Of a stretch of 64,000 nt of DNA, positions 10,597-41,200 are shown in pieces. The first letter of the stretch is position 1; each line of letters begins with the position of its first letter. The stretch covers positions 11,571,354 to 11,635,353 of the forward strand of contig NC_049986.1 of NCBI RefSeq assembly GCF_000003815.2. The letters run 5' to 3'. The translations under genes and the position numbers were made by a program. Below the pieces are notes generated by a model. The model saw only the letters and a program-made list of their open reading frames with translations, did not search any database and was not told the DNA's origin. The stretch is from Branchiostoma floridae. Lineage: Eukaryota > Chordata > Leptocardii > Amphioxiformes > Branchiostomatidae.

Positions 10597-13500
10597 GACA
10601 CCAACACTTCCCAGGCCAGACGTGCAACGTCCCTCACAGTCCGGCTCTTCTCTGCAAGCTGTGGGAAAGTGGTCCGCGATTGCAATGTCTCACTACGAGG
10701 ACAACCCCGCTCACTTTCACGTGCAGCTGATCGGAGCAGCTAAATTACCCAATTTTTCATGCAAGATGTGCCCAAAAGTAGCTCCATTCGCAACATGAAG
10801 TTCGCTCTACATTCGAACCCTGGTGGAACACGCATGCGCACATATCCCAGGGTGCACCTCGGCATTCCTGAGCAGGTGTCAATGTCCCGGATGTGTCGTC
10901 TGCTACGCGCCAAATCTGCAGCCAAAATGTCGTCTGCTAAACTTGGTCAGCTGGTGGGTTGAAACATCATGATACGTTGTCTTTACCGACTGTGGAGTAG
11001 ACGGCCCCGGTAAAAGTACAGCGACTCGGTACTTTTTTTTTCATTTACTCTGAAGTCTTCATTCCGACTAATTGAACTTCAAAACTGTTTAGTGCGTTTT
11101 AATGTTAACTTTTAGTGTTAACATGAAACATTAACATTATAACGCACTAAACAGTTTTGAAGTTATCATCATCTGCATCCACGTGTACAAGTAACGTTAA
11201 CGCTAAACGTAAACGTTCCAGTCGTAAGATGTGCTGTATCAAGAACTCTTGATATAAGATTTGAAAAAAGACATTTAAAGATGTTTCAACTCATAGTTAA
11301 CGTTACAGCAAAAGCAAGACGTTATCTTCTGCTCTCCACAGTCGCAGTGCTTAAGAGGTGCAGAAGAGTCACCTATCATATCTCAGTAGGATTTCACCCC
11401 GTGTCTAGCTGCTTGACTCGTCACCGATAAACAACCTCGTAAATAAGCCGTTGAGTCTTACATATCGAACAAATTTAGATATTGCAACGTAACGTTATAA
11501 CGTTAACGTTACTCATTTCTTCTAGCATCAATCCAGTATGAGTAATATTAGTTCGCCTCTCACAAACTGCCCCCTTTATACCGTCTTATAACGTTACGTG
11601 CTCTGAACTGGAAATCATGTGTCTGACATTTTTATGTTTTCATCAATTATTGACGAGTGAAGGGGATCGTATCCATTGTGCAATCAGTGACGTTGACATT
11701 CCACCAGGACCAGAGGTGTGGAGACACATCCCTTCATTGATCAGGTTTGTCATCGGCGATTCAGGTCGCCTGAGTGGTCAACGCTATTTAAGCCTGTGAT
11801 TTAAGGTAAGTGGACGACGACCATAGGCAAACGTAGTTCAAATAGTTTGTAATAATGAATTTCCCTGAACGATTAGTAGTAACACCAGTAGACAGAAGAT
11901 AGATAGTAGAAAATGGGTGGTGGGAGAGTACCGTGTAAACGTACGATGATTTCAGTGATGGTCAATATCTGCGTAGAGATCAATTAACTGTATTTTCTTT
12001 CGTATTGAATAGCAAATTTCCCGTCCAGAAGTGACTGTAGGCTATAACGTTACGATTTGGGAGCCAGTGTGGCTTGACACCACTGTTACATTTGACCTTT
12101 CCAACACAACACTAGTCTCATGTCTAATGCCAAGGTTACCGACGAGTGGGCGCATATTATGTAAGCTAGACATAGTTGCTGGTAATCTACTATTCAATGT
12201 CAGGTTGGTGTGGGATGCATGCATGCCTACTGTTCGATACCGTTATCATTATGTACACCAACGACACTGTATCAATGACAAAACAAGTTATGTCAAGGAG
12301 GTTCTATATAATATCCGGTTTTGATGTTACTGTTGTGACAATCAGCCAGTGTGTTCCAAGGTATACCGTCGGGCTATCAATGCTTTCATCACAATAGCGA
12401 TTCAGTATAATGCAATACTTAGTATATCATAACTTGGTTTCTATTTTCGTAACTGTGCACCAGGAATCCGCCAAACTGTTTCAAACTGTCTAAAAGTAGG
12501 ATTGGCTAGTTGACGTTTCTACTATAAGTAGAGCCATGTATATATGGATATAAAAGCTCTAAACTCACTACTCATTTGACGCAACCCCCTCGTAAAATTT
12601 CGAACATTATCACATAATCACTTTTCTGCGGTACAAAAATGCAACAACACCATGAATAGTGTATAACATTATATATAAGTGCTCCAGACGACATGAAAGA
12701 TTTCCCGTGTTCATTCAGTCATGAATACCACGGTCGCTTGGCACGAAAGGTGGGCCCGCCCTCGTGAAGTCAATACTAAACGACGAGACTGGAATGTTTG
12801 TCAATTGATGACATTGAATTTGTGAGCGTGGCCATATTTGAAATCGGTTGATAACTGTAAGGACATTCATAGTGGAAAACGAAAAGGCTTCCGTATTTCT
12901 ATTGCCCTTAGCCATCTTTTATCACCGGGATGATACGGGCGTTCAACGAATGCTGAATGATAGCAGTGATACCAAACTTGATGTAAACGTACACTTCGGC
13001 TTTTAAGATTCACCGCTCATGGACAAGGCATTGAGTGATTTGAATCAGTTTGTATTTTATATCATCCGTACCAATCAGATCATTGACAGAGACTCCACAG
13101 TCTACCACTATGTTGTTATCAGTGTACACATAGGTAAATGCCTTACCTTATCAAAAGTCAAAACTTTTATAATCAATATTCACAAGTTGTTGGTGTTTTG
13201 TAGTAGGTTGGATAGATCACAGAAGGACCGTAGTTTTCTGTCTGCATGGTTTATTGAACATAGATGTAACGACAAAGGACTTTCAAATTGGTGTGTATTG
13301 AACCTACTGTTACATTGTTAAGCATACACATAGGTAAATGGTTAACTGTTTACCTATCTTGTCATGTGTGACAAGAGGATTTGGTATGCGATATTTGCTA
13401 TGACTGAGCTAGATCGAAGGGGATAGAACATGTAACATTTTGTAATTCAGTTGATCATGCTAGTAACGGTAGATGGCAGGTCGAGTTCAATAGCATGCCT

Positions 13501-13599
13501 CAGGACGGGCCTCACAAGGCTGTGCTTGCCTCGGGCCAGCGCAAGCTCTTCCCCTTCGAACCCTGACCTCGCTCAAGGAGACGCTTGGCTGCGGGGTTA
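10597..13599. other. Upstream flank of COP1; no gene supported
   Basis: 10597-10960 is GC-rich and unmethylated-promoter-like by composition, and should hold the COP1 promoter and 5' UTR on the minus strand. It also has short plus-strand open stretches, for example from an ATG at 10687, that I cannot tie to a protein family. A strong hairpin lies at 11075-11164. The rest (to the gap) shows only short, unrecognisable ORFs. Confidence 0.5.
11075..11164. repeat. Inverted repeat, 32-base arms
   Basis: The left arm (11075-11106) and right arm (11133-11164) are reverse complements at 31 of 32 positions, with a 26-base loop. The arms contain AACTTCAAAACTGTTTAGTG and its complement. It could be a fold-back element or the remnant of a small inverted-repeat transposon. 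Confidence 0.85.
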
Positions 13600-13699
13600 N
13601 NNNNNNNNNNNNNNNNNNNNNNNNNNNNNNNNNNNNNNNNNNNNNNNNNNNNNNNNNNNNNNNNNNNNNNNNNNNNNNNNNNNNNNNNNNNNNNNNNNN
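13600..13699. other. Assembly gap (100 Ns)
   Basis: Exactly 100 undetermined bases, the conventional length for a gap of unknown size. It falls at the 3' side of the DIRS-like element, so the end of that element may be missing or misjoined. Confidence 0.99.
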
Positions 13700-13719
13700 A
13701 GATCTTAGGAAGGAGTGAC

Positions 13720-14316
13720 TTCTCCTTAGGTAAGATATGTCTCACCACACAAGATCTCTCTAAGATCTGGGTGCAATCGAACAACGATCTCTCTGTAAGG
13801 CTGAGTCAGCCTATCAGATTTGTTAGTTCCATAAGAACAAAACAACTCTGGAAACAAACTCTCGTACAGCATGAGATACAAGGACGCCAAAGTCCAACAT
13901 CTGTCAGCAGATTACAAAGCCATCAATTGCAAGATTGGCTTAAGCGAGAGCTGTTTCAAATTCAGGGACCTAATGGCTCCCAAGTCTGAAGGAATCTCAG
14001 AATCGTACCCACGTCCCAAGACTAAGTACCTCAGTCTTGGAGGGTCACGCGTGTATGCTTAATACACCCGCTTAGAGTTAAAGGCTCTCCAGTCAGACCA
14101 GTGTTGTTCTGACTGGACTCCGTCTGTGATCAGACGAGTTGAGAAAATCGCAGAGCCATGAACATTTATGGTCTTATAAAAAAGACCCCCTTGATTAAGG
14201 CACAAGAGGTAATCAGTGACCTCCATGGCCGTCGCCTTAGACGGATCCAATGCCCTAGTCTCGCACTCCAGGCTGCCTGATACTGTTTCTGTGAACACAG
14301 TCTTGCGGCGCAGCAC
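13720..14316 (-). pseudogene. DIRS-like tyrosine recombinase remnant
   Basis: The minus-strand translation has YLLCLNQGGLFYKTINVHGSA, the core-binding domain signature of DIRS recombinases. After a stop it continues PPRLRY and LNLKQLSLKPILQLMAL, then after another stop SADRC.TLASL, the start of the catalytic domain. The catalytic Arg-His-Arg-Tyr part would fall at or beyond the N gap and is not seen. At least three in-frame stops make this a pseudogene. Confidence 0.75.
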
Positions 14317-14629
14317 ACGCTACAGGTGCCGCCGGCGCGCCTCAGACGACAAACCCGCAGTGATCAGAGCTTGTCTGACACTATCCGGGCTGTTGGTCTG
14401 AGTAACCTCAAACGAGGATGAACTTCCTCTGACCCGGAAGAGGAACACCGTCTTGTTCCATTGGAAAAGACAGTAGATCTCAAACCAGAGTTCCTGTAGG
14501 AACAGAAAGCACGGTTGAGATGGCCAAAACTATGGCCATAGATTTCGCCTGATCGAGGCAAATTTCTCATAAGAACGTATAACTCGAGAGGAGGCAGAAA
14601 GGTGGAATCCCGTACACTCTCAAGTTGTC

Positions 14630-14733
14630 CCCTGCAACTTAAAGTGTCGATCTTCCACGCCTCTGGTTCTAGGCACAGAGTGCCAAACGCAGCTGTATTT
14701 CAGCCTGGATGCGAACAGATCGACCTTTGGTAG
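14630..14733 (-). pseudogene. DIRS-like RNase H C-terminal block
   Basis: The minus-strand translation contains PKVDLFASRLKYSCVWHSV, matching the VDLFASRLN block that closes the RNase H region of DIRS and Ngaro pol proteins. It sits downstream of the RT remnant and upstream of the recombinase on the same strand, as expected. Confidence 0.7.
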
Positions 14734-15479
14734 AACTGAAGCATACGCTTGGCGGAAAAGGAGTGGGCGAAAAACTCCACTGGTTTTGGTCTTGGAAACA
14801 CTCCGGGCGCCAAGTCGGCCTCGGAAATCGGACCCAGCAAGGGTTCCGATGAAAACACCAAACCCTTGCCTAAAGAGGCACACTACCACAAAGCTATGGC
14901 TGTCTGGCATAGAAGTTGGCAAAACAACTTCCTTGCCTACATATGTGCGCCACTGCTGACGTATGTATAAGCCTGAGGTGGACTTGACTGTTGCTTGCAA
15001 AGCAGGTTTGGTCGAGTAAACGTTGTAGCGAGCTCTAAAAATAGCTCGCTAATACGTGTCTCTCTCTTGAAGAGAGGAACCGTATTCTCGTCCTGCGTCC
15101 ACCGCAAAACTGCTCCTCGGACTTGAAGCGAGTCGTCCGTTGTGATAGTTAAACTACCGGACTCGCCCAAAAGTCTCGACTACTCCACCGTGGCAAGCAA
15201 GTTGACCCGGTAGCTAGTCCCGAGGGAGCTTCTGGGGACAACACAACTTCGGTGTCCCACAGACGAGTCTCTTTCAGAGCCCGTTTAGACCATTTCTACA
15301 AGCTCCAGTGAAAGAGCGTTGCCTGGTAGACCACCGCTGAACGCTACATCCATTGGGCCCTATTACTTCGGCAAGTGCCAAGAGACACATGAGGCAAGAA
15401 GGTACAATTCTTGTAAACCTTCACCTTTTTCTCTTGAGGAAGAGATAAGGTCATAAGAAGACAAATGATTTACTTCCAT

Positions 15480-15960
15480 CCAGGAAGATAACTGCTGGGT
15501 TGAGATCAATTGGGACTTTCCCAAAAGATCAGGAAACCCACATCATGCGTCATACAACGAACACGTTTGCAGGTACTGGAGACGCTTTGCCCGAGACGAG
15601 CCTGATTCAGCCAGTCATCCAGACAAAAACTATCCGAATCCCTTTGAATCGGATGGCACCAACTACTGGTTTAAAAACCGCATATGTCCTAGGAGCGCCA
15701 GAGGACCCTGGGACACTTTACTTGAAAAACTCCCCAACTGTTTCTGAAAAGAAACAACAGGAGTTTCTAAGTGACTGGTGTGATAATAAAAAGGGCAACC
15801 TTGATGTCCAGGTATACCAACCAGTCATCCCCACTTAGGAGGGACATCACGTCCTTGATGTTCTCCAGTTCACGTGTTCTGAAAACACCCTACTGTTTCA
15901 GAGGTCTGAAACTATGACTAGACGCCAAGTTCCATCTTTCTTTGGAACCATAAAACCAAA
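15480..15960 (-). pseudogene. DIRS-like reverse transcriptase remnant
   Basis: The minus strand shows VPKKDGTWRLVIV at about 15900-15945, the usual start of the DIRS RT core. After a frameshift it continues DDWLVYLDIK, the block with the first catalytic Asp, then after further breaks LDDWLNQ, which matches the YLDD-box region. It ends with LLGKSQLISTQQL, close to the conserved segment after the fingers and palm. These pieces lie in three frames, so no functional enzyme is encoded. Confidence 0.75.
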
Positions 15961-17700
15961 AACGGGGCCAAAAATTGGTCCCCGATTGGAGGATTCTCTA
16001 AGGAGATCCCAATTCCGCTGAAGCGAAAACAAGCCACAAGTCATACTTCTGGCCCTGTCACCTCCTCTGGAGGGACAAAAAGACGGAGTCGCCTTGAGAG
16101 ATGAAACAACGGTCCATCTCGAGCTGACAACACAACGCCCAGTACCCAAGGGTCTGAACAGATGTTTGTCCACAAGAGGGAACAAGAAATCCCTCAAATC
16201 TACTTGTAGCTGGGGCAGCAAGGTACCACACACAAAGAGCGACCTGTGCTCAAGCACAAGAGGCGAGGCAATTACTTATTGCCTACCAACTGCGGTGTCC
16301 CTTACACCCTTCCGGCCTGTAGCAGCCACGGAAGGAAAGGGATTTCTCCCCGCAGCCACGCCCAAAAACCAAACGGTTAGGCGTTACTGTGGCCAACGGA
16401 CTGTTATACCAGTCCTGTCGATCGGCGTCTTGGGTGCCTTACGGACTGCTATCCTCTGGGGAATAGCAAGTCCCCAAAACTAGCTACAGCTAGCTTTGGT
16501 CAGGTGATCATTTGTGTCTTTGACTGTAGTTAGCCAGACACAAGAACCTATTTTTAACCCAATCATGCACGAAGCGTCTGATTTGGGTGACATGGGGGCA
16601 AAACCCCAAACGTTCAAATGTCCCGCAAAATTCAGGTGGCCATTCGTGGTCCTACCTGTCATTCATGGCCCTTGCCTGTTCGCAAGGAAATCCATCCTCA
16701 TGAACGAGTCAATGAGGTTGCCAGAGGTCAATGACCTTCAAAAAGGACTGTAAGGCCTGCAAAGCAGTGCCTTTATTGTTTAAGCCGGAGCGAATCGTCA
16801 TGCTATGCGGCATGCATAGCTAAAAAAGTCTGTTACACAGACCGCCATTTCGCTTTCAATACCGGCTATGAGATGAGGCGGAGACCGCCTACACCTGAGA
16901 ACCGTCAAAAGATACGGTTTATCAGCGAGGAAATCCTCGTTCCAGGTGTGAAGCCTTTCTTCATAAACCAACCCAGAACTCCAGGGGAAAACAACATTCC
17001 CTGTGTTCAGGTTTGGTGAGGTCTAAAAGGAAAGTGAAAGGCCTCTCCAGTACAGAAAAGTCTGACTACTTACCTGTTCAGTAATAGCACCGGAGTACTC
17101 CACATTCTCGGAAAACATTTCCGAATCTGGAGGAGGCGCATGACCGACTGGTCCTTGGCCTCCGTGTACCACACCCCTGAGTATGTTCTCAGTGGGCAAC
17201 TGGGCTTATAACGTGGAGGACGCAAAGCGCGCCTCGAACGTTTATCGTCTGAAACGAAAAAACCCACGCACGTGAACCACGTGAAACTGACGGGACTGAA
17301 CTAATGCCGGTCTCAAGTCAGTCATGAGACGGCTAAACTTCGTGAACACGTTCCAATACAAGTGTTCAACAGGGGATTGGGTCATAAAAACCCCAGTACC
17401 TGGCCCCGCTGTAATAGGAAAACAGCGGGGGTGCTTCAAGAAGGCCTGCCGGCAACAAAGTGGCGGCGGACAAGCACTGGTACTGCTCGCAGAAAACCTG
17501 CTGCCACGAAGGACAGAGGATTGCGTAAGACTCAGGCGTGACAACCCAGCCAGTGGGAGGGGTCACGCCTCCCTGCCTGCACAAAGATACAGGAGGGTAC
17601 AGATTCCAACCATGGTCCGTAGACGTGGTTGGGATCATCACTTTGATCATCACCGCTAGACACGAAGAACAGGGCATGTTCGAACATGTCCGTCTAGCAC

Positions 17701-20637
17701 GTGAGCCTGAAAAGAAACGCTGTGAAAGAAAACAGCAAAAGGTGAATAGTGATGCAAAACAACAGTTCCAAAGTCACAAAAGCGACCTAAAGAGACTATG
17801 AAGTCTCAAGAACCTACTGTGAACTAAAAAGGACAGAAAATGTCCCGCTAAGGTAGGAAAATACCACCGAAGCGAGAGACAAAACGATACCACAAACCAC
17901 TTCGAAGAAGGGCAGTTTCGGGAAAGAGGATGATGGGAGGGTCAGTGCCCGGATGTTGTGTTTGCTCTTACTGTGAAGAACTGCCACCTTGCGGTTTCTA
18001 GGGAAAACGCCATTGTATTTCGGAGGGTAGCGACGTATAATTCGTAGCCACACGGGTTTGTTTAAGACCGCGCCTTCAAAACTTGCCGAACGAGTCCCTT
18101 ATATCGTAGTCCCGTAGTCTGATGGTCCCGAGGAACTAAGGTGGAGCAGCAGGGCAGGCTACAGTCCCGTTTTCAAGTGCATAACTTGACATTTCCCCTT
18201 GTTAAGACTACTAGGGTACCTTCCCTCAAGGTAAGCCAAATCTAAACCTTCTGTTTTTGTAGTTGACAGTGTGCGAGTGTCGGGGGAGCCTGGTGAAATG
18301 AGGGTCTAAGCCCTACCCAAGGACTAGCAAAACGTTTCTCATTTGGGTGTGTTCAGATATGTATCTGCACGTATTTACCGTAAATCCGCATTAGTGACGT
18401 TTGTCTGTGTGTCGGTTACCCCCTGGACACACATAATTTTACATTTATAAGTGACTTGAAGAAGCTTCTTCGACATTGTGCTGCCAACTCACCTTTTATA
18501 AGACATGCAGTTGATTCAGACATTAACCTACGGATCGGTTTTGCTAAATCATAGTAAATGAGAACAATGACAGAAACTCGGAGTCGGAGTTTGTTTACGG
18601 TTTTCACCTGCGTGGGTGCTTCATCGTGTATCAGTACGTTAGTGGTTGCTATTCAAAGCTGTGGCCTGATTTATTGGTTGATATATAAGTGGGATATTTG
18701 CTGAAGCATTCCTGAGGGCATACTATCCCCCTACGTGAAATTGCTTTAAACAGCGCCCAGTGGCCGTGGGCGTGTCCTTAATAATACCATGACGTCACCC
18801 CATGTAGACAAACAGCAAACTTTACACAGGAATTCCCACCGTGCCGTAAATACATGTGTGATTTGCATGGCCAAGAAACTCCTTCAGTATTTATAATGTA
18901 TCACATTCCTCAGTGTAATGCAGATCACGTATTTCTACTAGGTTGTTGGAAGAGCTACGTCAATAGCTCAGCCGGGGAGGTCAGTGCAATTAGTGTCCGT
19001 TTCGCTAATAAAGCATTTGGTGCCAACGTTTTAGAAGTTCCTAACACCAACAAGGCACCTGTTGAAAATGTGTGTTTGTGTCTCTTTCCTGTTTATGCCG
19101 CTGCTGGTCTGTAGAATTCTGAGTCGAGCCGGAAAAATGCTTGTCTGGGCGGGTTTAAATGTCAAAGGTTACAGAAACAAGTCATGTCTGAAATCAGCTG
19201 AGCGAAGAGGGAGGGGACACTGACAAGATAATCATTCAAGGTCGTCAGCTAAGAATTACGTATGCAGAAGTGTTGACTCGTGGTTACAGTGCAACAAATG
19301 CCTGAACACCGGGATGTGTTTTTGTTCTGTTTTAAAGAATGTAAGAACGCCTTTGTGTTTGAGATTCACGCAGAGATAGTTGGCATTGGGCCAAAACAGA
19401 TCGCAGTAGAGACTGACAATTACCTCAGGGTCTTACATGACAGCGTCACAGCATAACGTTCACCGAGGTATATCTCCTGATTTAGCTAGATGATCACAAT
19501 TATGTTGATCGGTACTGCAGGACGTGGTGGTTAATAGTCTAGACAAACACCTGGATATCATGGTGTAATGGTCCGGAATCCGACAACGCCCACTGCATGG
19601 TACGGTATTGTGATTATTGATGAAGGTAACTCATAACGTGTCCCGACTTAAGATGCCTTTGAGGATAAGTTCAAGGATGTCCTGATTTGTTATCATTCGG
19701 TTTGTAAGGCACTGTGGAAGGCACTGGAACGGCTTAAGTTAGACAACAAAGAGTGCGGGTGACGTGAGGTTATACCTTGGAATGCACATCACATCTTCAA
19801 TTAAGGAAGCAGTCTCTGGCATTTTACGGTCTCTCATACGCCTTAACATTACATTTGCAAGAAACAGCATTTCATTTATGTTCCAGGGACCTATGGCAAA
19901 TCGCCGTAAATACATAACTACGTTCATGGAGTACTGTCAGTTTGGTAGTCAGTCGGTGGCCGACCTCGTTAACGTTGTGCTGTATGCTAAATGTGTTAAC
20001 GTATAACTAGCCAGCATCTGCTGCAATGTATGCAATGACCCCCTTGGGGTCTTACCATCTATATGACGAACCATGTAAGCAAGGAGGTTAAAAATCTAGA
20101 TTTTTAACCTCCTTGATGTTAGTTAGGATTGGGCACGAGCTGGAAATAATGGCAACATGGCGTTGATACACCCGACGACTTGTGCGACTTGGGCATTTTT
20201 AGTTATCGACATCGTAACCATTCTTTCATTTACCAGAATGTTTCTTTCTTTTACTACATGGCTAGAAACCACGGAAGGATAACAGTGTTTACCTATACTA
20301 TCGGATGAATGGCAGGAACAGTCACTAAACAAATACATCATTAGTAGGCACTAATGATACAGGGCGTTCACCAGATAAGTTGAACTCTGCAGTACCGAAG
20401 GTCAAACACACCCGTGTAGCAGTCCTGTGTCTGATCCTTTTCCTGCCTATAATTTGACGAAGGTTTCCTGCATAAGTTTACAAGTAATAAGCAAGGTAGT
20501 GAATGTAACTTTGTGTAGAGCACTGTTGTGAGATAACGTAATTACAAGTACTAGTCATGAATAGTACTTTAATTGTCGTTTCCCCACCCACAGCGACTAC
20601 AGTAAGCCGAAGATCTGTGATACCAGACGGCGTCAAC
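17701..20637. other. Intergenic; no gene supported
   Basis: No recognisable coding exon on either strand. It contains a perfect 34-base palindrome (20081-20114). The stretch 20592-20637, after a CCCACCCACAG acceptor-like site, is a plausible 5' UTR of the next gene, implying a non-coding first exon further upstream. Confidence 0.5.
20081..20114. repeat. Perfect 34-base palindrome
   Basis: Two 17-base halves are exact reverse complements with no spacer, centred on TCTAGA. The flanks are unrelated. It may be the join of two inverted element ends or a cruciform-prone site. Confidence 0.9.
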
Positions 20638-21846
20638 ATGGCAAGCAAAGACACAGGTAAGTAAACATTGAATAGATCACGTTACGTTGTAGTTTTTGTA
20701 CCTGTTTGTTTGAGTTTGTTATAAATATGATGGCTTCTATGTGACCTCAAGGGTTGTTACAGTACTAGTGTCTGAATCATTGTGGTCTTGTGTGGTGGAA
20801 CTCGTAAAGCGTTGTGAGGACATTGAGATTACTAGTACCTCCCATATACTACTTGGACATTGTAACTCATGTAACTGTCCACATGAATACTATGGCTATA
20901 CAGCAGTGTTGGACAAGCTGTGGATTAGCTGGTAATTGACATGTTGCGACATGAAACGACGGATATAATTTATTGATGTAATATAACATGCGGAAAAATG
21001 TGGCAATATACTTTTCTTTTCTGTCTTCACATGATTGTTTCAACACATTTAAAATGTGTTTATACCCTACGAGAAATATGTACATGTTTTTAGATACAGT
21101 AACACAACGATTACTATTTTCTTAAGTACAATCAATACAATGTCTGGGCATAGGTCTTCAAATCCAGTCTCTACCTTTCAAGCAAGTGTGTAAACATAGT
21201 CTCCTACATTCGAGCAGTTCGATAGCGTTGCCTATGGTATTAAATTGGGCCCAATTTACTTCTGAATCACCAAATTCGTGTTTCCCATTTTGGTCAAGAG
21301 CAACTACAGCAAATACGCTTTAAGTATACATAAGTGGTGCTTATAATGCTTGGTGTGAACTATATTCGGTGCATTATGTACTGCATTCACAAAATGAAAT
21401 GAATGGTTATAGTTGCTTGTAATGAATAAGCTTTGGCATGTTTTGGGAATGCTGTGTCGCCTGTTCGCTGCAACAAGTCGTTTCGCTTCTTTTGTGTTGC
21501 TGTTCTCCGTTCCAGCTTCAGCTTCCTTAGTTGTTTTTCGAGACTATACTATGCACTAAAATAAACTCTTAGCTACTTTCACTGAGCAACAACTAGGTTT
21601 AGTCAGCGAACAGGCGATGTAGCGAAATGACCGGCTACCGCCTTGTGCTTTAGAGCTATAGTCTGGGTTGTGTCTTACTGCTGCAGGGGTGAAAATGGCC
21701 AATGGGACTGACGAGTTAATATGGATCACCCCGCATATATGTACGTACATGTTCATATCTAAGGTTGGCGCTGCATGTTAGATGCTTACGGTGAGGTGGT
21801 GGTGGTGGCTGGTGGTACTACGTACAGATGTGTCTACATCAGTTGT

Positions 21847-21880
<34 letters not shown>

Positions 21881-24800
21881 AAGTCCACTTTGTTCACAGC
21901 ACACAGCATCAGTAATGTGCACGTGTAGTCCTTAACAATATACAACATGTTAGATGTGCCGGTGATATTCCATCCTATAGTACCACAGTAACCTAGTCGT
22001 ACTTCGATTATCTCCTACCTTCTAACAAAGCACAGATAAGATGGTTAACGTTTTCAGTGCCATCCCAGAATTTGCAACAGCATTCGATTCCTGTATGTCT
22101 ACAATGTTATCTAGAAATCTATGACATTGACAGTATTTCATGAGAGATAACGGTGTTCAAATATGTACAGAGTACCCGTCCTCACTACGTAAATGTTTGT
22201 GAAATGGGGAAGAAAATGGTTTGTTTTTAGTCAACGCCAAGGCATAGTGGGGAAAATGACCAGATGATGATTACAATATTTACGTATTTTCAAAAGTGGA
22301 GTGAAATTTTGTAGTGATGGTTTAAAAGTCAGTTATTACTGGAACTGTAGGTATAAAGAAGACAGTCGCGGAGAAGACCGCAGTCCAGGGCCAGAAGACG
22401 GGTGGTGACAAGACTAAAGATGCAGGTAAACTTTAACCTCTCCTAGCTAATAAAGAAAACAATAGCATCGAAACTTACATGATCCCAGTTCGTACACCAT
22501 GTCTATTGTGAGTTCATTGTCGGAGGTCTGTCTTGGCATTGGACTATCTGACGCGTACGCTATGTGCTACTACACGTTAACGAAATAACGTACTCATTCA
22601 GCTTTAAATGAATGGTTGATTGAACTGACTGAGTCGACTGCTTGCTTCTTAAGGAAACCTCCAACATTACCTTGCCCCTGCATCGTAATCGCGCATGCTA
22701 ACATCAAGTACACATGCCTAAGCTGTCTGCTTTGTTATGCGCGGATTTCTGTTATCACGTTCAAAGATTCAGAAGACGAGAGAAAATCTTAGTAAAGACT
22801 TTACAAAAATGCGTCTATTAAGGAGTGGAGGGAACGACGAAAGGTATAGGACTGTAGTATATAATATGAAATTATGCCCTTCATGTGTACAATCTCTCCA
22901 TACACAAGTTAAGCTTATCGCGGGGCATCAGGCGATAGTTGCCTTATGAGCATTGATGTTGCTTATCCATGCTTGCAAGAGAACATGTCGTAATGGAGAC
23001 ATGTTCACCTCCATGTTTACATTTCCATTTTTTCTGCTAATGAAAGCACAAATCGTTATAACAGTGGGCTAGGCCAAGAGTACTAACATATCTGCCTTTT
23101 CCTCTTCTCTTGGTGATGGTTGCGCGGTCGCCTCTCCTGCCTCATTTGCTCGTTAAGTTGGCAGTGACTTCTATATCACAGGGGAGTACCTTTAAGTTAA
23201 CAACCTCACATTAACCCGAGGTCCTTAAATCCATATGGGTAACCCCAATTCTGTTTTTTTAGGGCGAAGGAATGTCTCTTCCTCAAAGGTGCAATCACTT
23301 CACAACTTACGAAATCAGACAGAAAGGACGTTCAGACGCAAAAACCTTACTAATAGTGCCGGGAAAGGTATAGAGGAGGAGGAGGACCGCATAGGCAAGC
23401 TTCTAGGTCGGCTAGATAGAACTTTGGACGGGCTTAAGGCCACGAATGTAGTAACCGGTGAGTGGCTTGGACAAACCCGATGACCTGTCACGCTAACCTC
23501 CACATGTCAAATAAACCATATACTTTGTTTCATTTCAGTTATGAGCAACAAGGGTGGCTCTAGCATGATTTTTCTGTCATCATATCCATATATAAAGTGC
23601 CTACATTTTGTTGCTGCATTGGTGCACGATGGCTTATCATAAGCACTCATACATGTACCTGGCTGTACGTGCGGTGCCTCTGGTTGCAGGGTCGTCATCT
23701 CATGCATAAATATCTTCTTCCTATCTTATTTGTACTCCCTTGCCTATGAAAAGTTCCGTCTGTGAGACGAAAAATGTAAGAAATGCTGGCGTGAACAGTT
23801 GCCTATATACCTTTTTCTTTTCAGAACCTTGACAAAATGACTCATTATGGTTATGGAATGGGCATCGATGATAGTTCATTTAGAGTGTTTTGAGTTTACG
23901 ACAAAAGCATCAAATTGTTGTCATGATCATTGCAAGCCGCAAGGAACATAAAGATGAAAACTTTTACATTCCAAGTTAGCCTCCTTTTTCATTGGATTGG
24001 GTTGTTTTAGTGATTCCAGTGTTTTAGTGATGCTGGCGTTTCCAGTTTCTACTCCTACCAACTATTTATCCGTGATCAGTAATAACCATTTCATATACTA
24101 TCTTGGTTCACTTTTCAACAGGAGTTGTAGACAAAAAGGGGGTGCAAGCTGGCTCCTTTGGGACAACGCAAAAACAAACTGAGCAGACCAGTTCAGCAAA
24201 TACAGGGAAAGGTGGACTGGAGAGTGCACTCGCAGGCGTGCTGCATGGACCAACAATTAAGGGTGACAAGGCCTCGAAAGAAAAAGCTCCCATCGTCGGT
24301 CCTGGCGGAATTCCTTCAGAAGAAGTGAGGTGGGGCTCCGAGTATGTCACCATGAAACAAGGTGATGCGACAATGCAGTCAGCCGCTCCAACACAAGCAG
24401 CAGCCACCATCAAATCAGCAGATACCACACAATCTGCACCGCCTCCAGGTCCTGGGCTGTCAGCTGCGCTGGAAGGCATGTTACATGGTCCAACTATTAA
24501 AGGTGACAAGGCTTCCAAAGAAAAGGCCCCAATTGTAGGTCCAGGTGGCATCCCTAAGGAAGAAGTGAGATGGGGCTCCGAGTATGTCACCATGAAACAA
24601 GGTGATGCGACAATGCAATCTGCAGCTCCAACCCAGGCAGCAGCCACCATCAAATCAGCGGATACCACACAATCTGCACCGCCTCCAGGTCCTGGGCTGT
24701 CCGCTGCGCTGGAAGGCATGTTACATGGTCCAACTATTAAAGGTGACAAGGCTTCCAAAGAAAAGGCCCCAATTGTAGGTCCAGGTGGCATCCCTAAGGA

Positions 24801-26308
24801 AGAAGTGAGATGGGGCTCCGAGTATGTCACCATGAAACAAGGGGATGCGACAATGCAATCTGCAGCTCCAACCCAGGCAGCAGCCACCATCAAATCAGCG
24901 GATACCACACAATCTGCACCGCCACCGGGTCCTGGGCTGTCAGCTGCCTTAGAGGGCATGTTACATGGTCCAACAATCAAGGGCGATAAGGCCTCGAAAG
25001 AAAAGGCCCCCATCGTAGGTCCTGGTGGCATCCCCAAGGAAGAAGTCAGGTGGGGCTCAGAGTACGTAACAGACAAACAAGGTGCTGCGACAATGCAGTC
25101 AGCAGCTCCAACCCAGGCAGCCACCATCAAATCAGCAGACACCACACAATCTGCACCGCCTCCTGGTCCTGGGCTGTCAGCAGCGCTGGAGGGTATGCTG
25201 CATGGACCAACCATTAAAGGTGACAAGGCTTCCAAAGAAAAAGCTCCCATCGTTGGTCCAGGTGGCATTCCAAAAGAAGAAGTCAGGTGGGGCTCTGAGT
25301 ACGTGACAGACAAGCAAGGTGCTGCGACAATGCAGTCTGCAGCACCGACACAAGCAGCAGCCACCATCAAATCAGCAGATACCACACAATCTGCACCGCC
25401 TCCAGGTCCTGGGCTGTCAGCTGCACTGGAAGGCATGTTACATGGTCCAACTATCAAGGGCGACAAGTCCTCGAAAGAAAAAGCCCCCATCGTTGGACCG
25501 GGTGGCATCCCTAAGGAAGAAGTCAGATGGGGTTCTGAGTATGTCACCGACAAGCAAGGTGCCGCCAAGATGCAGTCAGCCGCTCCAACGCAAGCAGCCA
25601 CCATCAAGTCAGCAGATACCACACAATCTGCACCTCCACCGGGTCCTGGGCTGTCAGCTGCGCTGGAAGGCATGCTGCATGGTCCAACTATCAAAGGTGA
25701 CAAGGCGTCGAAAGAAAAAGCTCCCATCGTTGGTCCAGGTGGCATTCCAAAAGAAGAAGTCAGGTGGGGCTCAGAGTATGTCACCGACAAGCAAGGTGCC
25801 GCAACAATGCAGTCTGCAGCTCCAACCCAAGCAGCAGCCACCATCAAATCAGCAGATACCACACAATCTGCACCTCCACCAGGTCCTGGGCTGTCAACTG
25901 CGTTAGAGGGCATGCTGCATGGTCCAACTATCAAAGACAAGAATGAGAAGAAAAAGAAAGCACCAGTCGTCGGTCCTGATAGTATTCCAACCGAAGAAGT
26001 CAGATGGGGGGCGGAATATTCTGAAAAAGGTAAGATTACGGTTGAAACATTGCTTCTCGGAACGAAGTTACGTTGGTGCTTAACGGTGCCGTCAATTTCA
26101 GACAGTAGCATCAGGCGCAGCGACTGTAATAAATTACAATGTTCTTTGCGACAATAGATATTGGTGTACAATGTAGCAACTTGTCAATGAAAAGTTTTAT
26201 ACAAATTGAACTATTTGCCTTTTTTTGTCCGCAGGAGCTAAAGGGTCAGAGAAGAGCAAAAAGTCTGGGGGAAGAAAGGGATCGGGCAAAAAGAAAGGGA
26301 AGAAGTGA
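20638..26308 (+). CDS. Unrecognised low-complexity protein with seven and a half 80-residue repeats
   Basis: Five exons: 20638-20656, 22351-22425, 23263-23457, 24122-26029 and 26235-26308, totalling 2271 nt and 756 residues. Every intron is phase 1 with GT-AG borders. Exon 1 encodes MASKDT; exon 2 is lysine-rich; exon 3 is basic with an EEEE run and a short heptad-like helix (RIGKLLGRLDRTLDGL). Exon 4 (about residues 97-732) carries the tandem repeats; exon 5 ends in a Lys/Gly-rich tail (KGSGKKKGKK). There is no signal peptide or membrane segment. High Pro, Ala, Gly, Lys and Ser predict disorder. Repeats differ mostly at silent sites, which argues that the protein is selected. I recognise no family. 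The basic tail could bind nucleic acid, acidic partners or microtubules, but nothing shows which. Confidence 0.82.
21845..21880 (+). repeat. (GTA)n microsatellite
   Basis: About twelve GTA triplets in intron 1 of the repeat-protein gene, likely polymorphic. Confidence 0.95.
24220..26026 (+). repeat. Coding tandem array, 237/240-bp units
   Basis: The HGPTIK codons recur at 24244, 24484, 24724, 24964, 25201, 25441, 25678 and 25918, so spacings are 240, 240, 240, 237, 240, 237 and 240 bp. Each unit reads in order: ALEGMLHGPTIKGDK, then EKAPIVGPGGIPKEEVRWGS, then EYVT-KQG, an SAAPTQA-A-TIKSADTT spacer and QSAPPPGPG. The 3-bp difference is one Ala codon in the AAA run. Units 2 and 3 are almost identical at the DNA level. 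Units 4-7 share DKQGAA instead of MKQGDA, so the array grew by local duplication. The eighth unit is truncated and more charged. Confidence 0.95.
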
Positions 26309-29300
26309 AACTTCGTACAAATAACCAACAGCTCTACACCAGGCGCCAGGCTTCAGCTAGCAGTGCAGTAAAACAGACACTCGTTTTCAATCACCTAGAA
26401 CGATTAGAGACCTTCAATATTATGGAATTATTGACGTGCCTGATGCAGATAGTGACATGTTATTCCTTTGGTAGCAAGGTCATCTTATTAACACCGATAA
26501 ACAAGAAATATAATGTTGCAGAAAGGAAATATTGACAGGAAGTAGAATGGTGAAAGAGATGGAGGATTCTTGGATTACTAGTATAAAGAAGACATTCCAA
26601 TGACGAGGTCTGCATGTGCCTTGGTATACATTAAATTTTGCATTTTATTACGTGCTAGTTCTAACAGCAATACTAAAGTTAGCAGTATATGCGCTGGTAT
26701 GATTTGTACAGTCCTGTATCATTGGCACATAAACGTATGTCAGAAATTGCAGCTAGTAACAATTTTGTATATTGTATATTAATCATTCGGTGAAAATGGA
26801 GATGTATGGAGGGTATGAGCAAAGTTCATCAATGTTTAAACACAAAGAGCCATATGGCCAATGCAGTAGATCTACCAATCAGTACCATCAGCTGGTCATA
26901 CCGCATTTCAAAGTTTATATTCTTGGAGCTTGATGCAAGTACATTTATTGCTGTCATAGTGGCACATATAGTGACGTTTGAAAATGGTACAAACAGTATA
27001 ATTTGCATTTTTGGGTCACTGGGACTGCGCCCAGCAACGTTAATTGCTGACGTTCATTAGAAATGGTGACAGGAATAAATGACAAAAATCATCCCTGCTG
27101 GGACAAAAGTTATTATTTGCGACTCAAGGGTTCGTGCCACATTACATATGGACTTTTCCTGCTTACCTATAGTAATTTCTGCACTAGAGTTACTTTTGTA
27201 CTTGAAATATGAAGACATGTTTAACAGCTTTAAGTGTTTTCCCATGCATAGTATTACTTTTATTCTTTTCATCCCTTCTGCATTAAGAAAAAATAACTGG
27301 TCTTCCAGTCAATTCAGGACTTTAACACAGTTCTTGTGCAGTACTCAAGTGTTCAGAAGTTTTATTGGGTATTGGAGTTTTAGTTTTCACAACCAGCAAG
27401 GTTTTACCTGCATGTTTCGGTACCTGTCAGACATCTTCATCAGAGCCCGAATGGAGTTCTACTTCTCGCCGCTATAGGTGGCAGATGCAGGTGACACTTT
27501 AATGGCGAGATCACGATCACATGATTATTATCCCAAACGTGGCTAGTACTAGTATGTGTCCACGCTCGTCCTGGTTCATCATTTGGGTTATTTTCTTACG
27601 CCTTACTATTCCATAGGATTAGCCACGTTAGGGATGGTACGGTGCTCTCGCTGCTAAGGCAACTTACCTATATTGGCTACATAAAGCATCAAAAAGTCAC
27701 TCCATGCCAGTCAGCTTTGAGAAAGATGTCCGACAAGCATCGAAACGTAAGCTGGTTAGACCTACTGGTTGTGAAAAAGAAAACGTCAATACACACCAAC
27801 CTGATGTTCAGATGATAGCTTTCCCCTAAGAAATGAACAATTTCTGACAGGTGAACATTGTCTTTATTCAAGTCATGCATGAGAAGTGCAAGCTGTCTGA
27901 AGTTCAAGTCTGCAACAGTCATGATAACAGGTGTGCAACATGGAAATCTAGCTAGCTTATGATTTTTTTTATAAACAGTTCAACAAAAACAACTTAAATA
28001 AATCAGTCTTTTAAACATATTCTGAGTAAACAGCATAATCTACTTTTTCCACCAAACATATTATACAAAAGTATAAACATTTAAAACAGAAACTAATCGA
28101 AAATATAAGCATAACATACATATACCGTATGGTATCTATTGCAACATCTTTAACTTGAGCTATTGCCCTAAATTGACATTATAGTCTTCTGTTTACTGCA
28201 GTATTTTTTCTCAGAAATGTACATTCGTGTAATATATTCTATAGCTAGCAAGGAGCAGTCCTTAAACACACGTTATCGAAATAACGGAAACTGTCAAAAC
28301 ACTTTTTCACCTTTCTTTGGTCAGCATCATTCTGACAATGTATTTGTTGGTACACACACAAAATGGAAGTATTTGGCACTCGGGTATTAGATAAGCCATG
28401 ATGACAAGTAGGCCCTCCTAACAGATCTTAACAGTAGACTGCCTGTTGGTAAAGCTGCCACACATAGTAAACATGATCATGAAACATGGTCATGTGTGTA
28501 ACTGAATCTCAGTTATATGCAAGACTTTTGTCCCAGATCTAGAAGCATTGAAAAATATTCAGGATCGAGCAATGAAATAATTTCCAGACAGACATTTCCT
28601 TGGATCACATAAGCCACAAACACTAACTATCCTGTTTTGCATACATCTCTCATTAAGGCAGTTGGTAAGCAATCATGAGGTCTATTCATATGGGATGGTA
28701 CATATACACATCCAATTGCATTGATATAAAATTTGGTTCAAAGATGTAAAGGCACACAAGTCCATCTACAGCCTGTCCAAATGAATCATATGGCAAGCTA
28801 TCCATAAAGACCCGCTGCAAGAAAAGTGTATATAAAGAGCCCATCTGCTTGCCCCCCTGTAAGAGCAGCATTGACCCATGCATCCTTCACTCATTTCTGA
28901 GTCAATGGAGAAGAATACATGTACACAGTTTCCATGGATTCTATGATTGTGTTGCAGCCATTCAATAAATATCAATTTGCTAACATCCACTTAAACTGAT
29001 AAATTCATTCCTACCCCATCTCCCAGATTTACCACAGAAAATTGCTGCAGCGGGTCATAAAAGTGTGACCTTAAATTTAAGCTGGAAAGTACATCATAAC
29101 ATTTTCAAGCCAACTGTACCAATAAGTAGTAATACTGTTAGCCCATTCATTGAATTTGTATCAACAGATACATACACAAAGGACATGATGTTTTTAACAT
29201 TGTCCTATTGTGTTGAGGGATAGAATCTTTTAATTTGCTGTAAGTAGAATTTTTTTCGTCATATATTCTCTCGAAGCAATTATATACAAGTATTTGGTCC

Positions 29301-35200: not shown

Positions 35201-38200
35201 GACCTTATATGACCTCGTTTGTCAGCGGGTATGGGTAGCGCCAGTTTACGAAGTTTTGTTTTGAAAATAAGTCAAAGAGGTTTTAAATTCGGCGTAGGGT
35301 GACGATACGGCAGCTGTATATGGCCGAACGCGTGCCGAAACATAGATAAGCGGTCCGCGTGGCCGTAATCGGCAGTGTTTTTGTACCTGCGGGACCGGAA
35401 ATCGTGTGGCCGTGGCCGCGTTGGACAGGTGGCCGCTAAGCCTATTTCTTAATCATTACAAATCCAAGGGACCGACAAAAAGTGGCCACTATGGGCAGGT
35501 GGCCGTTATGCAAAGGTGGCCGCTAATACAGGTTTGACTGTATTCAACTCAACTTAATAAAAACCTTCCTTAAGTTCCTATTTCCTGAGGGCTATTTGAT
35601 ACAAAAAGTGCAGAGACCAAAATGGACATTTGAAAAACAGTCTGATTGTCCTGAAATGCAGCATAGGCTACCTGTTGCCCTGCATGTCCGGTGGTCAGGA
35701 TTAAGTCTGTAGCCCTCAGCACAGGTGCAGTAATATGTGCCTTTGTCATTGGTACAGAAATGACTGCACTGGCCAGGACTTGCACACTCATCAATGTCTG
35801 AGGTAAAATAAATACATACTGAAACATCTCCCACAAGGGACAAGGAAACAAAAATATCAAAGAAGAAAAGTGCATGTTTTTCCATACTGACGATGCTGAA
35901 CACGATCCTATTGTACTGACCTGCACAGGTGGTTCCATCCTCCAGAAGCTTGAACCCAGGGTGGCAGCTGCACACTCTCCCTCCCGGGGTGGCCTGGCAC
36001 GTCCCTGTACACCCTCCGTTATCCTGACACACAGACGCTGCAGCAAAGTCATCATCACGTAAATAATCGAAGGAACTGTTAAACATCATCATAGATTGTT
36101 TTAATAAGACAATCTGGTTATTTCCAATTTGCAAAGTGATATCAAGAATTACAAACTAATGCACAAGTTTCATGTCATTTGAAATACACTTTTCCTCTTC
36201 ACTTCACTGCCAAACATTTCAGGATTTCAACTATCACAAGAAAAGCTTCTGAAAACATTTTTGGTAAAATAGACAGCACATTTTCCAATGAAACAAAATA
36301 GTATTTTACCACAAAGCCCTCCCTCATCTGAGGCATCAGCACAGTCTGTCGTCCCATCACACACTTGAGACAGAGGTAGGCACTCCCTGGTCAGGCACTG
36401 GTACTCATGTGATCCACACTCTCCCCATGCAGCCATGGTGGTCTGGGGTGCTGATGGAGTTGCTGTAGCCTGGTGCACACAGTCCTGTTCATCAGACATG
36501 TTCCCACAGTCATTGTCACCATCACACCTCCACCTGGCCGGGATGCACACGTGGGTTCCACAGCTGAACTCACCTACACCACATGTTGTAACACCTGCAC
36601 AGAAGCAACATCAAGTTGTTACCTCCATGAAATGTCATGGAGGTTATATTTACCTCCATGACATTTCATGGAGGTTATATTTACCTCCATGAAATGTCAT
36701 GGAGGTTATATTTTACCCTGTGTTTGTCTGTGTGTCTGTCTGTCTGTGTGTAAACAAAATAACTCAAGAACGGCTTGGTGGATTGGTTTCATACTTGGTG
36801 TGTTGGTAGGGTGTGATGAAAGCTGGAAATGATTAGATTTTGGTCCCCCTAGCGGCTTTCCTTGGTACTGCAGCGCAACTTCCGGGTCTGCTATCTCGTG
36901 TTCTGAGCAAGCTATGGTCACGATTTTGAAGTTTTAGATAGCTCTTGTGCTCAGAAATAAGTGACATAAGTTTGGGCCCCCTAGCGTCTAGTTTTGGGAA
37001 AGCAGGGGCATTTTTGTCAAAAACTTCTGAAGACGATAACTCAAGAAGGGAACAACGGATTTTCATCATTTTTGGTATGTAGGTACCTTAGACAATGTTT
37101 TACAAGATAAGATACTAATTATGCAAACAGGAGTACATTTGCATAATTAATGAGAATATTCTATCATAGCATTTTTTTCTATGTATCTCTTGTTCCAGAC
37201 ATGCTATGGTCTTGATATTTTGGTGGTAGATAGCTTTTGGTGTCATGAAAAAGTGGGGCAAGTTTCAGCCCCCTAACATTTAATTGTGGAACTGCATGGG
37301 TGTTTTTGTCAAGACACTCCAAAGAGGATAACTGCAGAAAGAAACGATGGATTGCCTGCATTTCAGGCATGCGGGTAGCTTAGGCAAAGATGTTCATAAT
37401 GATATACATGTTATGCAAATGAGGACTTAAATTGCATAATTAATGAGGAAATTGTATAGTTCCATTGTTTTCAATAACTGGACCTCAATACATGTAACAC
37501 ATGTTAATTACGATAGGTGGAATATAAGCAGATACCAAATATGGTAGTGAGGAACTTATTTGCATAATTTATGTAAAAATTACAAAACCGCTTTATGATT
37601 AATAATGGGAATTTTATAACTGTGACATGTGTACGTTAGTCAATGATGAACAACACCATGCATAAATTATATTAATGTGTTAGTCAATTGCATGAAAGTT
37701 ACGAAAGCTCTAAATTTTCATGGAGGTATGAGGTCGCCGAACTCTAGTTTACCCTGTGTTTGTCTGTGTGTCTGTGTGTCTGTCTGTCTGTGTGTAAACA
37801 AAATAACTCAAGAACGGCTTGGTGGATTGGTTTCATACTTGGTGTGTTGGTAGGGTGTGATGAAAGCTGGAAATGATTAGATTTTGGTCTCCCTAGCGGC
37901 TTCCCTTGGTACTGCAGCGCAACTTCCGGGTTTGCTATCTCGTGTTCTGAGCAAGCTATGGTCACAATTTTGAAGTTTTAGATAGCTCTTGTGCTCAGAA
38001 ATAAGTGACATAAGTTTGGGCCCCCTAGCGTCTAGTTTTGGGAAAGCAGGGGCATTTTTGTCAAAAACTTCTGAAGACGATAACTCAAGAAGGGAACAAC
38101 GGATTTTCATCATTTTTGGTATGTAGGTACCTTAGACAATGTTTTACAAGATAAGATACTAATTATGCAAAACAGGAGTACATTTGCATAATAAATGAGA

Positions 38201-41200
38201 ATATTCTATCATAGCATTTTTTTCAATGTATCTCTTGTTCCAGACATGCTATGGTCTTGATATTTTGGTGGTAGATAGCTTTTGGTGTCATGAAAAAGTG
38301 GGGCAAGTTTCAGCCCCCTAACATTTAATTGTGGAACTGCATGGGTGTTTTTGTCAAGACACTCCAAATAGGATAACTGCAGAAAGAAACGATGGATTGC
38401 CTGCATTTCAGGCATGCGGGTAGCTTTGGCAAAGATGTTCATAATGATATACATGTTATGCAAATGAGGACTTAATTTGCATAATTAATGAGGAAATTGT
38501 ATAGTTCCATTGTTTTCAATAACTGGACCTCAATACATGTAACACATGTTAATTACGATAGGTGGAATATAAGCAGATACCAAATATGGTAATGAGGAAC
38601 TTATTTGCATAATTTATGTAAAAATTGCAAAACCGCTTTATGATTAATAATGGGAATTTTATAACTGTGATATGTGTACGTTAGTCAATGATGAACAACA
38701 CCATGCATAAATTATGTTAATGTGTTAGTCAATTGCATGAAAGTTACGAAAGCTCTAAATTTTCATGGAGGTATGAGGTCGCCGAACTCTAGTTTACCCT
38801 GCGTTTGTGTGTGTGTCTGTCTGTGTGTAAACAAAATAACTCAAGAACGGTTGGGTGGATTGGTTTCATACTTGGTGTGTTGGTAGTGTGTGATGAAAGC
38901 TGGAAATGATTAGATTTTGGGCCCCCTAGCAACTCCCCTTGGTACTGCAGCGCAACTTCCGGTTTTGCTATCTAGGTGTTCTGAACATGCTATGGTCATG
39001 ATATTTGAGTGTTAGATAGCTCTTGTGCTCAGGAAGAAGCGACATAAGTTTGGGCCCCCTAGCGTCTAGTTTTGGGATAGCAGGGGCATTTTTGTCAAAA
39101 ACTTCTGAAGAGGATAACTCAAGAAGGGAACAGCGGATTAACATCATATTTGGTATGTGGAAACCTTAGACAATGTTGTACAAGATAAGATACTAATTAT
39201 GCAAAATAGGAGCACATTTGCATAATTAATGAGAACATTCTATCATAGCAGTTTTTTCAATGTATCTCTTGTTCTAGACAGCTATGGTCTTGACATTTAA
39301 GCGGTAGATAGCTTTTTGTGTCATGACAAAGTGGAGCAAGTTTCGGCCCCCTAACATTTAATTTGGGAACTGCAGGGGCGTTTTTGTCAAGACATTCCAA
39401 AGAGTATAACTGCAAAAAGGATGGAGGGATTGGCATCATATAAGGCATGCAGGTACCTTGGGCAAAGATGTTCATAATGATATGAATGTTATGCAAATGA
39501 GGAATTAATTTGCATAATTAATGAGCAAATTGTATAATTCGATTGTTTTCAATAACTGGACTTCAATAAATGTAACATGTTAATTATGATGGATGGATTA
39601 TAAGCAGATACCAAATATGGTAATTAGGAACTTATTTGCATAATTTATGCAAAAATTGCTAAACCGCTTTATGATTAATGATGGGAATTTTATTATTGTG
39701 ACACGTGTACGTTAGTCAATGGTGAACAATACCATGCATAAATTATGTTAATGTATCAGTCAATTGCATGAAATTTACAAAAGCTGTAAATATTCATGGA
39801 GGTATGAGGTCGCCGAACTCTAGTTTTTAATGTATTAAGTTGTATATGTTGTAATGTTGCATTTATCAAAGGGTAAACCTGCCTTTTGACATAAAGCACC
39901 AGTTCTGCAGGGTATGTTCATATCACATGTAATCAATCACACAGATACAGTAAAGCCTGTACAAAAATCATGACAGAATTTACAAAGTTACAAGACTGCA
40001 CATTACCACATCCTTCCTCATCCTCTCCATCGCTACAGTCAGCATCACCATCACATGTCCACTGGTCAGGGATACAGACACCAGAGGCGCAGGAGAACTC
40101 TCCCCCCTGACACGTGGACACAGCACCCCCCTCACAGCTCCGTTCGTCAGAGTTATCCCCACAGTCGTTCTGACCATCACACACCCAGCTTGTGGAGACA
40201 CAGACTCCGTTTGCACAGGTGAACTCGGTCGGTTGGCAGGTTGTGGTCGGCGTGGGACAGTCCGGGGGCTCGTCGGACCCGTCAGCGCAGTCGGGGTGGC
40301 CATCGCAGCGCCACTGCTCGGGGACACAGCCTCCAGACTGGCATGGGATCAAACCCTGCTCTGTACTACAGACGGTGTCAGGACAGCCGTCTTCATCTGT
40401 ACTGTCTGTGCAGTCCTGAACCTGATCACATCTAAGGACAGGGGGGAATCCATGGTTACCAAAGCTGACAGCAGAACATAGATGTGCAAATATACAAAAC
40501 ATCTCTGCAACTTAGCTTCCTTTTTACATTTACACACAATCAGGCAAATATGATACTTAACAAAGTACTACTGGCCTATCTCATTACTACATGTAACTGA
40601 AGGTAATATCACGTTACAATTTTACATCTGGCAAGTTACTATTAGTAAGAACAAACTTGACTTGTGTTTGCCTCAAAATATGAAAAAACAGCAGACAGCA
40701 ATTACATGCAAAGAATTTTTCAGAAGGTTGGGGATAATTTGAGGCAGCAGAAAGCTGCACTTAACACTCCCTCTTACCTTCTAACATCAGGCAGACACCT
40801 GTAACCGTCACACAGGAAGTTCTGAGGTGGACAGGTGGCCGGTCTGCAGTCCTGCTCGTCTGACCCATCCCCACAGTCGTCCTCCCCGTCACAGTGCCAG
40901 GCCTCCATGATGCACCGTCCGTTGGTGCAGGTGAAGTCAACAACAGAACACGTGCGTTCTGATGGGACAACAGAAAACACATTCCAAGTCCAGACATTCA
41001 CTCTTCCAACTCTTGTAAACGATAGCTTGCTTTGTGTCTATTTTCTGACCAATGTGAAAAATCAATGTCATTTAAAGAGTAATGAAAACTGCCATTTTGG
41101 ACCATCTTTTCCATCAATTTCAAGTGGAAATATCCCAAGGTCCAGTAAACTACATGTATGTCTACTAGGTACTAAAGATGGAAAGAATGACGTCTTACCA

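Follow-up and report, generated by a model that had tools for sequence, protein, structure and literature searches.

The window analysed here, a stretch of 64,000 nucleotides of the Branchiostoma floridae genome (contig NC_049986.1, positions 11,571,354 to 11,635,353 of the forward strand), contains on its plus strand a five-exon gene model, the fourth exon of which carries an array of tandem repeats that are translated and very strongly constrained at the protein level. All coordinates are counted from the first letter of the window.

Gene model and repeat array

The five exons (Table 1) join to 2271 nt, corresponding to 756 codons and a stop codon, across four introns that are all of the GT-AG type and in phase 1; the coordinates, length, phases and residue count of the original prediction, made from the letters of the DNA, were reproduced exactly. 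The start codon lies 32 codons downstream of the nearest in-frame stop, which ends at 20541. The interval 20658-24100 contains 55 open phase-1/1 candidate exons that are 45-300 nt long and whose donor score is positive; in a ranking of these by crude splice scores, exon 3 came first and exon 2, with a score of 8.6 and a poor acceptor (0.9), only 8th. The predicted model holds in its joins and phases and is weakly backed in its second exon. A further phase-1/1 candidate on the plus strand, at 21687-21740, scored 11.6 as against the 8.6 of exon 2. For exons 2, 3 and 5 a test by codon usage was without power, as it gave a negative score even for exon 4. Overall, exon 4 has very good support, exons 3 and 5 are likely to belong to the gene, and exons 1 and 2 are tentatively assigned to it.

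The array was found to consist of eight copies of a 46-residue core (LSxALEGMLHGPTIK...KAPIVGPGGIPxEEVRWGSEY) and seven copies of a 33-34 residue linker, where seven and a half repeats had originally been counted; the linkers appear by eye to be built of hexapeptide-like steps (QSAAPT/QAAATI/KSADTT/QSAPPP). Tandem Repeats Finder reported the array both at 24234-25934, with a period of 477 nt (3.6 copies, score 2524), and at 24244-25936, with a period of 240 nt (7.1 copies, score 2371). The successive unit-to-unit spacings are 240, 240, 240, 237, 240, 237 and 240 nt, the length difference among units being exactly 3 nt, and 29 core residues are invariant in every one of the eight units, even in the diverged ones at either end. 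Direct-repeat and tblastn searches (E up to 1) found no further copies of the unit elsewhere in the 64-kb window. On the minus strand an antisense open reading frame of 691 codons runs through the array at 24111-26183.

Table 1. Exons, repeat units and possible polyadenylation signal of the gene model
Feature	Position	Strand	Remarks
Exon 1	20638..20656	+	start codon and MASKDTg; donor CAG/gtaagt, crude splice score 12.7
Exon 2	22351..22425	+	Lys-rich (IKKTVAEKTAVQGQKTGGDKTKDA); weakest-backed exon
Exon 3	23263..23457	+	predicted helical hairpin, residues about 38-61 and 66-95; weakly CEP63-like second helix, 68-90
Exon 4	24122..26029	+	1908 nt; short lead-in, then entire repeat array
Repeat unit 1	24208..24447	+	80 aa, divergent start
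Repeat unit 2	24448..24687	+	80 aa
Repeat unit 3	24688..24927	+	80 aa, protein identical to unit 2
Repeat unit 4	24928..25164	+	79 aa
Repeat unit 5	25165..25404	+	80 aa
Repeat unit 6	25405..25641	+	79 aa
Repeat unit 7	25642..25881	+	80 aa, protein identical to unit 5
Unit 8	25882..26028	+	diverged core without linker
Exon 5	26235..26308	+	basic tail and stop codon
Possible polyadenylation signal (ATTAAA)	26630..26635	+	motif match only; AATAAA also at 27074 and 27997

Selection on the repeat units

On average, two units of the set 2-7 are unlike at 44% of synonymous and 1.5% of nonsynonymous sites, with 4, 3 and 51 variable positions at the first, second and third codon position, respectively, which is far beyond chance and bears out the earlier statement that the repeats vary mainly at silent sites. 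The pooled ratio of nonsynonymous to synonymous substitution (dN/dS) was 0.024 for units 2-7, with a bootstrap range of 0.003-0.059, as compared to 0.056 (0.022-0.105) for units 1-7 and 0.019 (0.003-0.046) when unit 1 and the near-copy unit 3 were left out, bearing in mind that unit pairs are non-independent and that synonymous sites are near saturation in several of them; the lowest value in 500 neutral simulations was 0.53. Within units 4-7 the pairwise dS by the Nei-Gojobori method ranged from 0.39 to 1.18 and dN from 0 to 0.011, and units 4, 5 and 7 specify the same protein bar one Ala insertion or deletion, with 19-32 synonymous and no nonsynonymous differences per pair (32 between units 4 and 5). 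Units 2 and 3 are near-copies separated by 4 synonymous differences, and the nonsynonymous changes of units 2-7 are located at unit residues 22, 49, 53 and 55.

The excess of silent differences between units that is expected of a translated tandem-repeat protein was found to be specific to the reading frame. Based on uncorrected proportions of differing sites (pN/pS) in units 1-7, the frame of the gene model had the lowest value of the six (0.082), followed by the antisense frame that shares its third codon position (0.163), the remaining four ranging from 1.95 to 4.13. Because of the dN/dS of 0.024 and this frame-specific silent excess, which recurs, in weaker form, in the wobble-sharing antisense frame and in no other, we conclude that the repeats are translated and are under very strong constraint. 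The original prediction had proposed selection on the protein rather than satellite DNA and had named a dN/dS near 1 as refuting it; the values obtained, 0.02-0.06, sustain the proposal.

Silent sites of linker codons 64-77 in units 1-7 (for example 24637-24678) are far less variable than those in the rest of the unit. Among columns of fourfold or higher degeneracy 1 of 10 varied within these codons, as compared to 33 of 35 outside, the corresponding figures for two- or threefold columns being 2 of 4 and 10 of 18, and silent variation as low was obtained in 0, 36, 285 and 554 of 5000 permutations with 14, 12, 10 and 8 columns, respectively. Folded linkers of units 2-6 form GCAGAU-ACCACACA-AUCUGC, or a version of it that contains a G-U pair or has five pairs, at z-scores of -1.45 to -1.95, and 6-13 of 200 shuffles fold equally well. 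This RNA hairpin was dismissed as a product of chance, as no pair had changed on both sides among six distinct sequences and an equally long stem was present in 1487 of 5000 synonymous versions. The low silent variation may result from local gene conversion or from a signal at the nucleotide level.

Predicted structure and family searches

Two tandem repeat units were modelled by AlphaFold, from a shallow alignment, as disordered and devoid of secondary structure, with a predicted local distance difference test score (pLDDT) of 47.0, whereas exon 3 was predicted from its sequence to form a helical hairpin (pLDDT 80.7). The disorder originally claimed for the protein is thus borne out by prediction for the repeats, but this hairpin speaks against extending it to the whole protein. 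The repeat units are charge-neutral (six and six charged residues in the core, two and two in the linker), while the final 24 residues (733-756) include 11 Lys or Arg and 1 acidic residue. The protein contains no cysteine, and no signal-peptide-like start was seen by eye.

No credible family for the repeats was found in Pfam, NCBIfam or the PDB, in agreement with the earlier remark that the conserved blocks fit no recognisable family, and a single repeat unit had no Pfam match. DUF6554 (PF20191) and CoaZ_rpt_PGGG (NF058597) scored 31.5 with the 756-residue protein and 33.3 with the 635 residues of exon 4, against cut-offs of 27.5 and 30, respectively; these scores are sums of weak copies, and no stretch passes either cut-off alone.

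Neighbouring features

Numerous LDLa and EGF exons, belonging to an LDL-receptor-related protein (LRP-type) gene, were recognised by pattern on the minus strand at 32790-60855, and all three of its open reading frames that were tested were confirmed by Pfam. Three tandem copies of a unit of roughly 1.04 kb, with a 292-nt sub-spacing, lie amid these exons at 36721-39826. Long open reading frames on both strands at 13500-18000 resemble retroelement debris, with a reverse-transcriptase-like stretch noticed by eye at 15901-16275 on the minus strand, and none of seven tested there had a Pfam match at E up to 0.01. Positions 13600-13699 are a run of 100 N.

Discussion

We consider the chance to be about even (a probability of roughly 0.5) that this is a protein-coding gene whose product serves as an intracellular, multivalent linear scaffold. 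The N-terminal helical hairpin of exon 3 and the Lys-rich C-terminal tail would bracket the eight core motifs, which flexible linkers would hold apart, and if each core binds the same partner, one chain would collect about eight copies of that partner. The starting points of this proposal are the exon structure, the anatomy of the repeats, the purifying selection acting on them and the predictions of a disordered array and a hairpin, from which we infer that binding is multivalent and what part the hairpin and the tail play in it; the lack of cysteine and of a recognisable signal-peptide-like start suggests the intracellular location. The core residues kept invariant in all units would fit a binding motif maintained in each copy, and the occurrence of unit 8 as a core without linker indicates that the module is separable from the spacer. 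Several points weigh against a scaffold of this kind. The AlphaFold run on the array drew on only 7 near-identical rows, so that the low score it gave is weak evidence for disorder, and the charge-hydropathy score places the core on the ordered side (0.120, as compared to 0.059 for the linker and 0.012 for the whole protein). The linker protein is conserved as much as the core, which would be unneeded in a pure spacer, and constraint is weaker in pairs that include one of the diverged end units (1 or 8), with a pooled pN/pS of 0.26 in uncorrected proportions. Exon 2 and the start codon are predictions from the sequence, and the protein as a whole is known here from sequence and prediction.

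That the array is satellite DNA lying open by chance is a negligible prospect: it does run head to tail and its antisense strand is open as well, but the dN/dS, the length difference of exactly 3 nt and the frame-specific substitution pattern of exon 4 contradict this, and 46 of 500 synonymous shuffles have an antisense opening as long. It appears unlikely that the protein is a binder of polyanions or nucleic acids in which the basic tail leads and the repeats merely form a conserved spacer, for although the tail and exon 2 are rich in basic residues, the repeat units are charge-neutral and a dN/dS of 0.02 is not expected of a spacer. A polyprotein cleaved into identical units in the manner of polyubiquitin would account for units that differ only silently, yet two tandem units model as disordered, no dibasic site was seen by eye within units 1-7 and the first and last units are diverged, all of which makes cleavage very improbable. 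An actin-monomer binder, in which LSAALEGMLHGPTIK would represent an eightfold helix like those of WH2 or the Ena-VASP GAB domain (PF02205; PDB 2pbd) after a short proline run, is equally doubtful. This resemblance lies in a short post-proline stretch in which G and I-K are spaced as in WH2; a WH2-like core pattern fits (matched in 1 of 2000 shuffles in its strict and 25 of 2000 in its loose form), but was devised after viewing the sequence, and the best local alignment, which pairs unit 2 with the VASP GAB peptide, was equalled by 10 of 1000 shuffles and is the best of 12 comparisons. No Pfam match to WH2 or to beta-thymosin (PF01290) was obtained, thymosin beta-4 itself scoring 81.9 bits, although the Pfam WH2 model misses the genuine VASP GAB too and its silence is therefore not decisive. 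With filters off, the WH2 profile reported neither unit 5/7, unit 1 nor the last unit, while reporting 933 of 2000 shuffles (top score 3.8 bits), GAB at 10.8 and thymosin beta-4 at 7.6, and a profile-profile comparison with WH2 (hhalign) gave a probability of 0.1%. Taken together, Pfam, our own profile, hhalign and shuffled local alignments did not support actin binding of the WH2, GAB or thymosin type, and the idea was set aside.

The most specific lead that the sequence provides is a weak likeness between exon 3 and the helix with which CEP63 binds CEP152. It would be explained by a centriole or basal-body scaffold, which we regard as improbable; in such a scaffold the second exon 3 helix would bind CEP152 like that of CEP63/DEUP1, and the repeat array would drive clustering, as DEUP1 does by self-assembly. 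The best Pfam match of exon 3 alone is PF25771 (CEP63/DEUP1, CEP152-binding coiled coil; 18.8 bits, E 0.0011), 11 of 23 ungapped residues match CEP63 as in PDB 6csu, and of the eight CEP152-interface residues five are identical and two are I-to-L changes. Of 5000 plain shuffles none scored as well against CEP63, and of 5000 that kept the hydrophobic pattern one did, but 500 of 5000 did so when the charge pattern was also kept. PF25771 was matched by none of 50 hydrophobic-pattern shuffles, two of which matched any Pfam family (E 0.07 and 0.13), and was absent from the best 25 of 39 families for tropomyosin and from the matches listed for lamin rod, GCN4 and two fragments. The score is nevertheless below the curated cut-off of 21 (the CEP63 peptide itself scores 75.8) and fades in longer context, to E 0.016 with the first 172 residues and to E 0.27 and 11.2 bits with the whole protein. 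Genuine coiled coils match unrelated models at E 2.6e-7 to 0.1 (tropomyosin down to 2.6e-7, lamin rod 2.7e-5, GCN4 0.0066), the CEP63 peptide matches HalX (E 0.0019), CCDC-167 also matches exon 3 (E 0.0082), and a phmmer search of the PDB with exon 3 at E up to 10 returned only occludin (E 1 and 1.2) and not CEP63. The enrichment at the interface is not significant (p 0.235, or 0.087 with conservative changes counted). No comparable repeat array is known from CEP63 or DEUP1. In those proteins the helix follows coiled coils at the C-terminus, as against residues 68-90 of 756 in the present five-exon model, which has no long coiled coil, though further exons may lie upstream. Joint mutation of the eight interface residues of CEP63 abolished CEP152 binding (PMC6411776), and DEUP1 combines a self-assembling N-terminal region with a CEP152-binding C-terminal end (PMC7938805), a logic that motivates the idea without directly supporting it. 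Still less probable is its narrower form, a lineage-specific assembly scaffold in which that helix would be joined to a disordered but strictly conserved eight-copy sticker array, which would cluster the complex and so replace the N-terminal coiled-coil self-assembly of DEUP1.

The multivalent scaffold remains the reading that we favour. Under it the array would present about eight equal sites to a single binding partner, and it offers a clean natural case in which to ask what makes a disordered repeat keep its residues, given that the 80 residues of units 4-7, those of the flexible linker among them, have hardly changed despite the extent of their silent divergence. Disordered tandem-repeat proteins are common, and polyubiquitin genes likewise consist of identical protein units with silent differences only; the present protein differs from polyubiquitin in its predicted disorder, its diverged end units and its additional exons. 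Tandem-repeat proteins of Nematostella vectensis are often open in several frames including antisense ones, and of 94 supported by expressed sequence tags about 40% had a Ka/Ks above 1 and about 50% the opposite (PMC2805694), as compared to the ratio of 0.02-0.06 in this array. The survey of Persi, Wolf and Koonin (2016; PMC5120217) reports strongly relaxed purifying selection between repeats within proteins, human repeat pairs being mostly below a dN/dS of 1; the present array shares with such repeats its origin by duplication and the likeness of neighbouring units, as in units 2 and 3, while selection on it looks strong. In a comparison that is qualitative, as the methods differ, this array looks to lie at the constrained end of such repeats.

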